A DNA stretch of 64,000 bases from Prochlorococcus sp. AG-409-P01 (lineage in GTDB: Bacteria > Cyanobacteriota > Cyanobacteriia > PCC-6307 > Cyanobiaceae): positions 62,001 through 126,000 of the forward strand of contig QCKM01000004.1 in assembly GCA_003215335.1 (NCBI GenBank), given 5' to 3'. The notes below the pieces were generated by a model. It did not search any database, was not told the origin of the DNA, and saw nothing but the letters and a program-made list of their open reading frames with translations. This document shows positions 11,392 through 15,904 of the stretch, in pieces. Each line of letters starts with the position of its first letter. Position 1 is the first letter of the stretch. A program made the translations under genes and the position numbers.

Positions 11392-12450
11392 GTGCAGCAG
11401 CCCTTTCTTAAAATAGAAAATATTTGGCACAGCTATGGGACTTGGCCTAGGACTCCATGGACGCTTTCTTCAGTTGATTTAAGCCTTCAAAAAGGAGAAC
11501 TTGTTGGATTACTAGGACCATCAGGTTGCGGCAAAACAACACTATTGAGGCTGATCGCTGGTTTTGAGAGGCCAAGCAGGGGAACGATTTTTTTGGATGG
11601 GAATCCAATCGCAAATTCTGTAAATGTTCTTCCTCCTGAGCTTCGCGCGGTTGGAATGGTTTTTCAGGATTATGCACTTTTCCCGCACCTCAACGCTTGG
11701 AGAAATGTCTGTTTCGGACTTCGTCGAGGAGAAGATACATGTCGCGCAGAATGGCTTTTTGAGTTACTTGATCTAGTTCCTTTTCGGCAAAGGTATCCTC
11801 ATGAACTATCTGGAGGACAAAGGCAAAGACTTGCTTTAGCAAGAGCTCTTGCTCCTGGTACATCTCTGGTTCTTTTAGATGAGCCTTTTTCAAATCTTGA
11901 TGTGGAGGTTCGTTTAAGGCTTCGTAGTCAGCTTCCAAGAATTCTTCAAACATGTGGGGCAACTGGCCTATTGGTTACTCATGATCCACAGGAAGCCCTT
12001 GCTATCTGTGATCGTGTTGCAGTTTTGAGGTCTGGAGAGTTGCATCAATGTGCTCCACCTTGCGAACTTGTTGATCAACCTGCCACTCCTTTTGTCGGGA
12101 GATTTGTTTTGCAGAGAAATATCATTCCATTGGATACTTCTGGAGATATTTGGAGTACACCAATTGGATCAATAGAGAGACTAAATGATATTCCGATTAA
12201 TGAGGCATCACAGCTAATGGTGGATGATCAGGTTATCCAGGTTCGCCCTCATCCTTCAGGCGAAGCTTTGATTCAAAGTAGAGAGTTCCAAGGTACCCAC
12301 TGGATTCTTAGTATTTCTATTGGCGATCATGTTTTACGAGTTAGGCAACCATTGGAGGAATTAGTTAATACTGGGGACAGATGCTTCTTGAACTTCAAAC
12401 CAGGTGGCAGTGGGATTATTTTTCCTGGAGCAATTCCATGTACTCTTTAG
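11392..12450 (+). CDS. futC: ABC transporter ATP-binding protein, iron(III) type
   Basis: ATPase subunit of an importer, 352 residues. Walker A is GPSGCGKTT near residue 43, the Q-loop lies in VFQDYALFPHL, the ABC signature is LSGGQRQRLALARAL, Walker B is LVLLDEPFSNLD, and the switch His is in VTHDP. The C-terminal 110 residues form a TOBE-like regulatory domain, as in FbpC/FutC. Closest by layout is FutC, which powers Fe(III) uptake with FutB and FutA1/A2, neither of which is nearby. Ferritin and a Crp-type regulator downstream support an iron role, but spermidine- or sulfate-type ATPases share the fold. The GTG start gives the expected N-terminus. Confidence 0.85.
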   Translation: MQQPFLKIENIWHSYGTWPRTPWTLSSVDLSLQKGELVGLLGPSGCGKTTLLRLIAGFERPSRGTIFLDGNPIANSVNVLPPELRAVGMVFQDYALFPHLNAWRNVCFGLRRGEDTCRAEWLFELLDLVPFRQRYPHELSGGQRQRLALARALAPGTSLVLLDEPFSNLDVEVRLRLRSQLPRILQTCGATGLLVTHDPQEALAICDRVAVLRSGELHQCAPPCELVDQPATPFVGRFVLQRNIIPLDTSGDIWSTPIGSIERLNDIPINEASQLMVDDQVIQVRPHPSGEALIQSREFQGTHWILSISIGDHVLRVRQPLEELVNTGDRCFLNFKPGGSGIIFPGAIPCTL

Positions 12451-12563: not shown

Positions 12564-12698
12564 TCAGTTTTTGCTGCATTGACACTTCCCACCTTTCCAC
12601 TTGCTGCACTTGCTTTTTTTGCAACGCTTCTTTTTGTTTATACGAGTATCTCTACGACCCATATAAATATCTGTTGATTGTCCAACAGGTTTGACCAT
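12564..12698 (-). CDS. 44-residue Lys/Cys-rich microprotein
   Basis: A 44-residue frame from ATG at 12698 to TGA at 12564. The first half (MVKPVGQSTDIYMGRRDTR) looks like a conserved, ordered N-terminus. The second half is extremely basic, with four cysteines spaced C26-x4-C31-x7-C39-x1-C41 among lysines, ending CQCSKN. That suits binding of metal, an iron-sulfur cluster or nucleic acid. It is encoded opposite to the flanking iron-type ATPase and ferritin genes. I do not recognise the family. The non-random composition and sensible ends argue that it is real; 12451-12563 and 12699-12855 hold nothing else clear. Confidence 0.6.
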   Translation of the reverse strand: MVKPVGQSTDIYMGRRDTRINKKKRCKKSKCSKWKGGKCQCSKN

Positions 12699-12855
12699 GA
12701 TTGGCTATTGAAAGGTTAACTAATGAGATTGATTCGCATTATAGGCTCTTGAATTAGTGGGATTTTACAACTGTTTATTTATGCAATTATCTTGTATCAT
12801 TAGGCACATAGATCCATTTAATTGCAGCTAGACGCATCTACCCCATTTGCTACAA

Positions 12856-12876: not shown

Positions 12877-13455
12877 ATGACAACCACATCTAGTCTTCCA
12901 GCTATAGGTCTTTCGACAGGCCCTGCAGGTCGGGTAATCGCTCAGCCAATGGAAGCAGGCTTATTGCAGGGGCTCCAGGATCATCTCACTATGGAAAGAA
13001 ATGCCAGTGCTGCTTACTTTGCAATGGCAATTTGGTTTGCCGAGAGGGAGCTAAGAGGTTTTTCAAAGTTTTTCAAAGAGGAGGCTGTCAATGAGCAAGA
13101 ACATGCAGGGAAGTTTGCTGATTACCTTATTGCTCGTGGTCAGACAGTAGTTTTACAAAATATACCTGCGCCCAAACAAAGTTGGAGCTCAGCCGAAGAA
13201 ATCATGGCTGCGTCATTTCAAATGGAAGCAGATGTAACCTCATCACTTCATCAGCTATATGCAATGGCAGAAAGAGCTTCAGATATGCGTACTACAGTCT
13301 TCTTAGATCCAACAATTGACAGTCAAATAGCTTCAGAAGATGAATTTGCCCATTTATTGGGAAGAGTACGTTTTGCTCAAAATCAACCTCCAGCAATGCT
13401 TCTCATTGATGGTGAACTAAGTGATGGAAAACAAAATAGAGGTACTTTGGCTTGA
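12877..13455 (+). CDS. Ferritin (iron storage)
   Basis: Four-helix-bundle ferritin of 192 residues that oxidises Fe(II) and stores it as a ferric core. Ferroxidase ligands are visible: Glu40 and Tyr47 in TMERNASAAYFAMA, Glu73 and His76 in the EEAVNEQEHAG helix. Marine picocyanobacterial ferritins share this layout. The ATG at 12877 gives MTTTSSLPAIG; an earlier frame start at 12847 would add ten unrelated residues. The flanking iron-type ATPase and Crp-like regulator suggest an iron-response block. The Ser/Gly-rich stretch before the bundle (residues 3-20) is a normal disordered lead. Confidence 0.95.
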   Translation: MTTTSSLPAIGLSTGPAGRVIAQPMEAGLLQGLQDHLTMERNASAAYFAMAIWFAERELRGFSKFFKEEAVNEQEHAGKFADYLIARGQTVVLQNIPAPKQSWSSAEEIMAASFQMEADVTSSLHQLYAMAERASDMRTTVFLDPTIDSQIASEDEFAHLLGRVRFAQNQPPAMLLIDGELSDGKQNRGTLA

Positions 13456-13494: not shown

Positions 13495-13791
13495 TTAAGT
13501 TAACTGCTCTAAATTTATTTGTTTTGACAGAGACCTATTAGTTATTTCTATAAGGAATTTTATAGAAAGCTGATCTAGAGACTTGTTTCGTTTCCAGCTG
13601 CTTGCAAGTTGAAGAATTTCTTGACTTCTTTGATTTATAATTTCTAATTCACGATTTTGACGAAGATATAGATCATGGTTATTGCATGTATTTATGGATA
13701 TCAAAAGACTTTGCTTTCGATAGCTGTTTACTGCAATTTCATGGCAAAGGTTACCAATAACACTCTCTGAACTGGTTAGTGTTTTTTGCAT
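13495..13791 (-). CDS. Hypothetical helical protein co-transcribed with crp-like gene
   Basis: A 98-residue soluble protein of predicted helices with two Cys (residues 16 and 36) and many Ser, Asn and Leu. It begins 6 bases after the stop of the Crp-type regulator, which makes a two-gene operon nearly certain. No family recognised. Its place in the iron block makes a regulator partner possible, but nothing in the sequence proves this. Confidence 0.65.
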   Translation of the reverse strand: MQKTLTSSESVIGNLCHEIAVNSYRKQSLLISINTCNNHDLYLRQNRELEIINQRSQEILQLASSWKRNKSLDQLSIKFLIEITNRSLSKQINLEQLT

Positions 13792-13797
13792 TTTTAT

Positions 13798-14391
13798 TCA
13801 GGCTGCTAAGGGTGCAGATTCAATAAAAGTTGGTGAAAGGCGGAGTTTTGGCTCACCTGTAGGTGAATTAAGCAAATCAGCAGTCCGCAATCTTGAGATG
13901 AGGCGTGTTGAAGTAACACGTGTAGAACCAATAAGTTCTCCAATTCGTTCGTGAGTCAAACGAAAAGGGAGGTCGCACCAATCACCACAGCGTCTCCCGA
14001 GCCTGTTTACTAGGAGAGCTAACAGTGCTTGAAGACGTTGTTCTGCACTTCCTAGGTGGCGTATACGAAGTAATTGAAGTGTCCATTCATTAACTGCATC
14101 GAAGCCATGCTCTTCACTTGCCTCTACATCATTAAAGAATTGCAGTGGAGTCAGGGCTTCAACACATACTCCTTCGCTGCAGAGTCGATCAGTACGTAAT
14201 TGGTCGCCAGATTGGAGGAATGCAAGTGTCATCCCCTCGGTTTCTTCACAAGGACAGTAAACACGAGCTATGCCCTCTGTCACTTCTAGGCAACCTTTCC
14301 CTGTACGAGAAGTGGGATCTAAAAGTATTGATTGGCCAGTGGAAAGCCTTACTTTGTCAGAAGACTCATTTGGCATGAAACGGAAATTCAT
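13798..14391 (-). CDS. Crp/Fnr-family transcription regulator
   Basis: A 197-residue regulator. Residues about 10-100 form a shortened and divergent cyclic-nucleotide-type beta-roll, without the conserved Arg-Ser pocket, so cAMP binding is unlikely. Residues about 110-140 make the dimer helix, and 146-176 form a winged helix-turn-helix (LTHERIGELIGSTRVTSTRLISRL) of the Crp class. Four Cys in or near the sensor (CPC at 46-48, Cys71, Cys76) could sense redox or iron; that is inference. A palindrome cluster lies just upstream. It is not NtcA, whose DNA helix differs. The ATG at 14376 is a possible shorter start. Confidence 0.88.
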   Translation of the reverse strand: MNFRFMPNESSDKVRLSTGQSILLDPTSRTGKGCLEVTEGIARVYCPCEETEGMTLAFLQSGDQLRTDRLCSEGVCVEALTPLQFFNDVEASEEHGFDAVNEWTLQLLRIRHLGSAEQRLQALLALLVNRLGRRCGDWCDLPFRLTHERIGELIGSTRVTSTRLISRLRTADLLNSPTGEPKLRLSPTFIESAPLAA

Positions 14392-14826
14392 TTCAATTGA
14401 ATAACGGCTTGTTGAGAAGTCCTCTCAAAATAAACCCATAGAGGCGCTTTTTGCAAGCGATTCTCAATAGCAAATGTGTTGTTGAGAGAAATTGGATAAG
14501 AGTTATACGCATAGGTAGCATTTGATACGATTCAGCCATGTATTTCGGCAGTTCCTGACGAAGCCACTAAATAATCCTGCATGAATTTTGGGTTTTACAG
14601 AGCTCTATAAATAGTCGGATGAATGACTCTCTGGCATGACAGTTAATGTCGTTTAGTCAAGGCATTTGTGTATGCACTGTTGCCTTAGAGACTTCTGAGG
14701 AGCATTTCTGCTAAATGACCAATCTATAAATGTTTTTCCTATTTATATAGGATGAATGTAATTTATTGTGTATAACAACAAATTTGTGTTGTGAGATAAT
14801 TAATTAATGAGCTCTAGTATTATTAG
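14392..14826. other. Divergent intergenic region, 435 bases, crp-like / Prx-like
   Basis: This spacer separates two divergent genes and should hold both promoters. It contains the TTGAGA half-site cluster described separately and one exact GTA-N8-TAC at 14515-14528, the consensus core for NtcA. Such a site is expected by chance about every 4 kb, and no well-spaced -10 is clear. A TATA-rich stretch at 14730-14800 may serve the plus-strand gene. No RNA gene or frame is supported. Confidence 0.45.
14412..14490. promoter_or_regulatory. Cluster of four TTGAGA half-sites before the crp-like gene
   Basis: An inverted pair TTGAGA-N5-TCTCAA occupies 14412-14428, 21 bases upstream of the regulator's ATG. 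A second pair in everted orientation has TTCTCAA at 14461-14467 and TTGAGAGAA at 14482-14490. Crp/Fnr proteins bind palindromes of about this size (FNR uses TTGAT-N4-ATCAA), so autoregulation is a reasonable inference. Confidence 0.5.
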
Positions 14827-15561: not shown

Positions 15562-15688
15562 CTCTTCGAAACTAGTTTTAGTAGATTTAACCTAAGAGGC
15601 TTCATTCAGTTGCTAATCTATTTGGGTTCTGTCTGTTGACAGGTAACATTTGGATGAATTAGTTATTCTGATAAAAAGCATATATATT

Positions 15689-15904
15689 ATGCCGTCTAAC
15701 ATTTGCTCTAGGTGTGGCAGTTCCTCTATCCGGGCCGATAGGGCCTTAGGTGGCCGATTGGTCTGTACTAAATGTGGAACTACTTGTTCTGGAAAAAAAT
15801 CATGGACAAGTCAAAAAAAAATTAGTTCCAATAGAATTTCTAAAAAAGTAATTTACTTATGTTTAGCTTGCTTAACTTTCATCATACTATTAATAGTTGT
15901 TTGA
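15689..15904 (+). CDS. Small zinc-ribbon protein with C-terminal membrane helix
   Basis: The 71-residue product begins MPSNICSRCGSSS and contains two knuckles, CSRC and CTKC, about 17 residues apart, the mark of a zinc ribbon. A basic Ser/Lys-rich linker follows, then a final hydrophobic helix (VIYLCLACLTFIILLIVV). It is therefore tail-anchored with the ribbon in the cytosol. The ATG at 15689 is preferred over the TTG start at 15650, which adds unrelated residues. Function unknown. Confidence 0.75.
   Translation: MPSNICSRCGSSSIRADRALGGRLVCTKCGTTCSGKKSWTSQKKISSNRISKKVIYLCLACLTFIILLIVV

Follow-up and report, generated by a model that had tools for sequence, protein, structure and literature searches.

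A conserved Lys/Cys-rich microprotein of picocyanobacteria with a predicted Fur-family operator, a possible helper of SynFtn-type ferritin

Iron supply limits Prochlorococcus and Synechococcus in large parts of the ocean, and a small frame set among iron genes in these organisms raises the question of whether it encodes a protein and, if so, what that protein does there. The window analysed here is a stretch of 64,000 nucleotides from Prochlorococcus sp. AG-409-P01, in which the original prediction placed a 44-residue frame between an iron-type ABC ATPase and a ferritin. This frame is indeed present, on the minus strand, which the original prediction had left unstated, with 44 codons running from ATG to TGA and the translation MVKPVGQSTDIYMGRRDTRINKKKRCKKSKCSKWKGGKCQCSKN, and its surroundings are as follows.

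11392 to 12450, plus strand: FutC/PotA-like ferric-type ABC transporter ATPase, convergent with the microprotein gene
12564 to 12698, minus strand: gene of the 44-aa Lys/Cys-rich microprotein, with a conserved C-terminal CX4CX7CXC block containing W and GG
12724 to 12738 (19-mer 12722 to 12740), entered without strand: predicted Fur-family operator core of 7-1-7 form, TGAGATTGATTCGCA, from a palindrome search of microprotein promoters
12877 to 13455, plus strand: SynFtn-type non-heme ferritin (Pfam PF00210, E 4.9e-33), divergent from the microprotein gene
13495 to 13791, minus strand: 98-aa conserved hypothetical protein between the ferritin and CRP-family genes, with relatives in 31 of the 60 sampled loci
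13798 to 14391, minus strand: CRP/FNR-family transcription regulator, the nearest conserved same-strand neighbour of the microprotein gene
14450 to 14468, minus strand: second predicted Fur-family operator, ATTGAGAATCGCTTGCAAA, lying about 77 nt before the CRP-family gene

The start codons of the microprotein and ferritin genes lie about 180 nt apart. The ferritin is a relative of SynFtn of Synechococcus CC9311, and its nearest solved structures are 182-residue ferritins of the 7pf9/5ouw type (E 2.6e-61). A simple promoter/terminator scan at the locus gave signals no higher than those of shuffled sequence. Further along the plus strand, at 15650-15904, lies a gene for an 84-aa protein with a zinc ribbon (CSRCG...CTKCG) followed by a transmembrane stretch, whose family occupies the same position in 27 of the 60 loci.

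Judged by comparison across genomes, the frame is a real protein-coding gene of a lineage-specific (alpha-cyanobacterial) family. A tblastn search with the 44 residues found open-frame relatives in 62 of 99 related genomes, spread over dozens of genera, most of those in the family, and with E values down to 1e-11 outside its own genome, and a profile built from 28 relatives found the microprotein in 281 of 400 Cyanobiaceae genomes, including 205 of the 251 assemblies that are at least 90% complete. Named matches include Prochlorococcus AG-409 single cells, Synechococcus and Cyanobium strains, and a Microcystis elabens record. In other cyanobacterial families the profile search found essentially none, and outside Cyanobiaceae it gave only a marginal partial match (E 0.009). 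Both the frame and its cysteines, whose conservation in related strains the original prediction had proposed as a check, are kept in the tblastn and profile searches, and the four cysteines are invariant in the 28 relatives.

The pattern of substitution points the same way. In 120 distinct ORFs the start, the stop and the length of the open frame are kept, and third codon positions drift while the amino acids of the tail stay fixed, with almost no amino-acid change in the tail as opposed to 24-56% synonymous change within groups. Because these ORFs had been picked by a Cys/Trp/Gly pattern, the tail was recounted with the pattern-fixed residues removed, which gave pN of 0.000-0.027 versus pS of 0.27-0.49 within groups, and pN/pS of 0.008 in one group of close relatives with 40 residues, which is probably high-light Prochlorococcus, 0.000 in a group of Cyanobium type and 0.055 in a third group; the sequence pairs are non-independent, and the direction of the result is unmistakable. 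On these counts the C-terminal tail is under very strong purifying selection. Over the whole gene dN/dS is 0.07-0.30, while the N-terminal half evolves fast (0.18-0.6). That the frame might be no protein at all, lying by chance over a conserved RNA or DNA element, is suggested by its small size and its overlap with the intergenic region; this explanation is contradicted by the codon pattern (third-position variation, fixed amino acids, length-conserving frames, and conserved start and stop), an Rfam search around the locus gave no match, and we regard it as extremely improbable.

The dense basic tail with four Cys described in the original prediction is readily seen, since K+R number 15 as opposed to 2 for D+E, the predicted pI is 10.3, and CQC stands near the end of the protein. 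The structured-looking start claimed alongside it holds only as a weak M-x-x-x-(I/L)-G motif; the rest of the N-terminus is variable, and conservation sits in the tail. In the 120 ORFs, where Cys spacing was itself a selection criterion, the tail consensus is KKKxCKxxKCSxWKGGxCxC (CX4CX7CXC), and in the 28 relatives, which were found without a Cys pattern, M1, C26, K27, C31, W34, K35, G36, C39 and C41 are invariant. The AlphaFold model (mean pLDDT 70) has a floppy N-terminus and a tail predicted with confidence as a small turn-hairpin-turn (pLDDT about 87 at residues 31-40), for which Foldseek found no fold match. As the basic block of 20 residues is cytosolic and holds four invariant Cys, the simplest reading is that the tail would hold one metal ion or Fe-S cluster in a small knuckle.

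Several identities were searched for and rejected. Pfam, NCBIfam and PHROGs gave no family match for the window protein or its relatives, and the PDB gave none by profile. The microprotein family is thus conserved in picocyanobacteria and contained in no family library searched here. No sign of a phage-borne gene emerged, as no relative was found in phage records (tblastn with the 23-residue tail) or in viral contigs (profile). A prochlorosin-like RiPP precursor was set aside because conservation is concentrated in the C-terminus and the conserved neighbours include no modification enzyme, and an exported disulfide peptide because the sequence has no hydrophobic signal segment. A literature search on guessed locus tags of the corresponding MED4 region found no paper.

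The neighbourhood was compared in 60 genomic regions, mostly one per genus. A CRP-family, ferritin or FutA/B/C gene lies within 5 kb of the microprotein gene in 57 of the 60 genomes, and none of these in 3; counted singly, 49 have a CRP-family gene at this distance, 47 a ferritin, 35 the FutC-like ATPase, 16 FutA and 13 FutB. More than a dozen gene orders occur, among them CRP > < ferritin - microprotein > < FutC, the same order with FutB-FutA replacing FutC, CRP > microprotein directly without ferritin, and microprotein > < another ferritin. The last is illustrated by two loci without the ferritin orthologue (L091 and L141), where the gene immediately downstream encodes a different ferritin, of the FtnA type. 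In some genomes the CRP-family gene and the microprotein gene apparently form one operon. The persistence of these neighbours through rearrangement favours a functional link over simple inherited order. Several Cyanobium-like genomes, in which the microprotein gene adjoins FutB and not ferritin, count against a role as a ferritin helper.

The four invariant Cys, placed within 20 residues in the reducing cytosol, would also suit a cytosolic metal buffer or chaperone for Fe2+, Zn2+ or Cu+ that either passes the ion on or shields it, or that modulates Fur or the CRP-family regulator, with no contact with ferritin, and the metal-gene neighbours, which in some genomes include znuA and a CobW-type GTPase, are in keeping with such a protein. 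Its basic charge and invariant W-K-G-G, however, exceed the needs of a thiol buffer, and we consider this role decidedly unlikely. Bacterial metallothioneins (PF02069) have about 9-10 Cys, and the microprotein has no PF02069 match. While the cyanobacterial metallothionein BmtA/SmtA is likewise a small Cys protein and serves metal homeostasis, the microprotein differs from it in having only four Cys, in being Lys-rich with an invariant Trp, and in its iron-gene as opposed to zinc-gene context.

Ferritin also tends to occur in the same genomes as the microprotein. Among 400 genomes, 251 have both the microprotein and the SynFtn-type ferritin and 108 have neither, with 30 and 11 discordant (phi 0.77), as opposed to phi 0.53 for the microprotein and the CRP-family gene; these figures are inflated by shared ancestry among the genomes, by the loss of adjacent genes as a block and by incomplete assemblies. 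Within CRP-positive genomes the association of microprotein and ferritin remains at phi 0.67, and 43 of the 53 CRP-positive genomes without the microprotein also have no ferritin. By these gene counts, the microprotein tracks ferritin better than it tracks the CRP-family gene. The two co-occur although they are far apart in some groups (90 kb versus 950 kb in G158). Some genomes have the microprotein or the ferritin without the other, which counts against the ferritin-helper reading.

Evidence on regulation comes from a de novo palindrome search of the 180 nt before the start codons, which returned AaTGAGAaTcAtTCTCAtT with a score of 449 versus 253 for shuffled sequence. The window copy, TGCGAATCAATCTCA on the minus strand at 12724-12738, lies about 25-40 nt before the ATG of the microprotein gene and about 137 nt before that of ferritin. 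The strict pattern of this box has four matches in the 1.78-Mb genome, the window copy included, versus one for the reversed pattern, and the other three are not at obvious iron-gene promoters. A matrix trained on microprotein promoters found the box in 42 of 49 CRP-family gene promoters, all outside its training set, as opposed to 0 of 126 promoters from five control genes in the neighbourhood, and on this evidence the microprotein and the CRP-family gene share a predicted Fur-family operator. A box of their own is present before 35 of the 60 microprotein genes (median distance 40 nt, interquartile range 38.5-43.5), and in the 30 boxed genes with an adjacent divergent ferritin it is some 120 nt away from the ferritin start; a further 7 of the 60 have no box of their own and lie 20-120 nt behind a boxed CRP-family gene. 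The remaining 18 have neither, which counts against control of the family by this operator, and in GC-rich genomes the uncertainty of start codons may conceal some boxes.

The odd-centred 7-1-7 form is typical of Fur-family sites, as opposed to CRP/FNR sites, which are even-centred, and autoregulation by the CRP-family protein was rejected on this ground. In these genomes, znuA promoters contain a comparable palindrome, also odd-centred, AATGAtAAtcaTTaTCATT, that agrees with the published Zur consensus (PMC9337993), and some copies of the microprotein gene adjoin znuA, as would be expected of a zinc- or peroxide-stress protein controlled by Zur or PerR that sits near iron genes through inherited order. 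The microprotein box differs from that of znuA (TGAG/TGCGAAT as opposed to TGAAAAT/TGATAAC) and is common to the CRP-family gene, and the iron neighbours survive many rearrangements, so that a Zur- or PerR-controlled protein of this kind appears improbable. Since the znuA box is related but different, Fur is the preferred regulator over Zur or PerR, on motif form only.

Neither FutA nor flavodoxin promoters have this Fur-family box, which counts against the favoured ferritin-helper reading with its Fur-family control. The microprotein family also hints at a two-tier iron circuit, where the CRP-family regulator and the microprotein would both answer to a Fur-family repressor, with the futA and flavodoxin promoters free of the box. 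The CRP-family gene may act as an IdiB-like second-tier iron regulator. In CRP-family promoters (14450-14468 in the window; L092, L099, L120 and L129), there are often two possible Fur-family boxes, at about -77 and -37, one of them nearly invariant (ATTGAGAATCGCTTGCAAA). Several FutA/IdiA promoters without a Fur-family box (L252-L271) share a weak motif around GTGACATTTGTTAC/ATTTGTTACA, possibly the site of another regulator.

The iron role envisaged in the original prediction gains support from the iron neighbours kept through many rearrangements, the upstream Fur-family operator and the co-occurrence with ferritin. We tentatively favour, at less than even likelihood, the reading that the microprotein is a metal-binding, basic helper of SynFtn-type ferritin that is under Fur-family control and acts in iron shortage, with a logic like that of Bfd and a different sequence. 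In this mechanism, a Fur-family repressor, most likely Fur, would shut the gene when Fe2+ is plentiful, so that the protein would be made in iron shortage; the strongly basic tail would dock on an acidic partner, for which the ferritin shell is the likeliest candidate; and the protein would help to withdraw or hand on stored iron, as Bfd does for bacterioferritin. A basic, iron-repressed Cys4 protein that co-occurs with one ferritin would be best explained as such an iron-release helper.

The Cys motif of Bfd is CXC-X31-34-CX2C. Bfd carries a [2Fe-2S] cluster, has high co-occurrence with Bfr, and bfd is lowered when fur rises (PMC12363616). Like Bfd, the microprotein is small, has four Cys and a gene often near or co-occurring with a ferritin-family gene (47 of 60 loci within 5 kb; phi 0.77 in 400 genomes), and would follow an iron-repressed logic. 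Unlike Bfd, it has only 44 aa with CX4CX7CXC in a basic tail of 20 residues, its partner would be a heme-free SynFtn-type ferritin, and Fe-S binding is only predicted. Its identification as a Bfd was rejected on profile and Cys spacing, as the window protein has no Pfam match to Fer2_BFD at E<=1 and the 28 relatives give chance matches only.

The strongest rival of the ferritin-helper reading is an Fbp-like iron-sparing effector, also repressed by Fur, in which a Zn-knuckle tail would bind RNA (together with an iron-stress sRNA or the degradosome) and lower synthesis of iron-rich proteins. Precedent is provided by FbpA, FbpB and FbpC of B. subtilis, small basic proteins regulated by Fur for which a role as RNA chaperones has been suggested (PMC7430163); the microprotein resembles them in being very small and basic under a Fur-family operator, and its Lys-rich Cys4 tail with an invariant Trp could suit nucleic-acid binding. 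It differs from them in its Cys4 tail, its ferritin linkage and its phylum. Pfam and NCBIfam, which may hold no Fbp models, give it no match, and none of the families in the searched libraries is related to it in sequence. Ferritin predicts the microprotein better than the CRP-family gene does, which an RNA helper would not need, and we hold such an effector to be rather unlikely. Certain ferritin transcripts of CC9311-like type increase when iron is low, a result that its authors had not expected (PMC9723758) and that fits either reading.

The ferritin-helper reading extends to a bolder claim, that the microprotein is the first dedicated partner of heme-free SynFtn-type ferritin, a new Cys4 knuckle that would pull iron from the store in Prochlorococcus and Synechococcus and that shares one operator with a CRP-family iron regulator, which we judge doubtful. 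The accessible portions of the SynFtn literature name no small protein partner. The family offers a testable small gene for iron recovery from ferritin in picocyanobacteria, one that is nearly universal in the clade and has both an operator and a partner predicted for it.

Additional copies of the motif occur elsewhere. Several genomes of genus g18 score two copies of the microprotein, and some Prochlorococcus-like genomes have a stripped-down paralogue of 28 aa, MPDKKKKKKCKKKKCSNWKGGKCICYGQ, away from iron genes (L302:1621-1704 and L304:4122-4205). In Prochlorococcus AG-402-N21, a copy of the motif lies directly 3' of three pcb (IsiA-like antenna) genes (L082:4001-4075).
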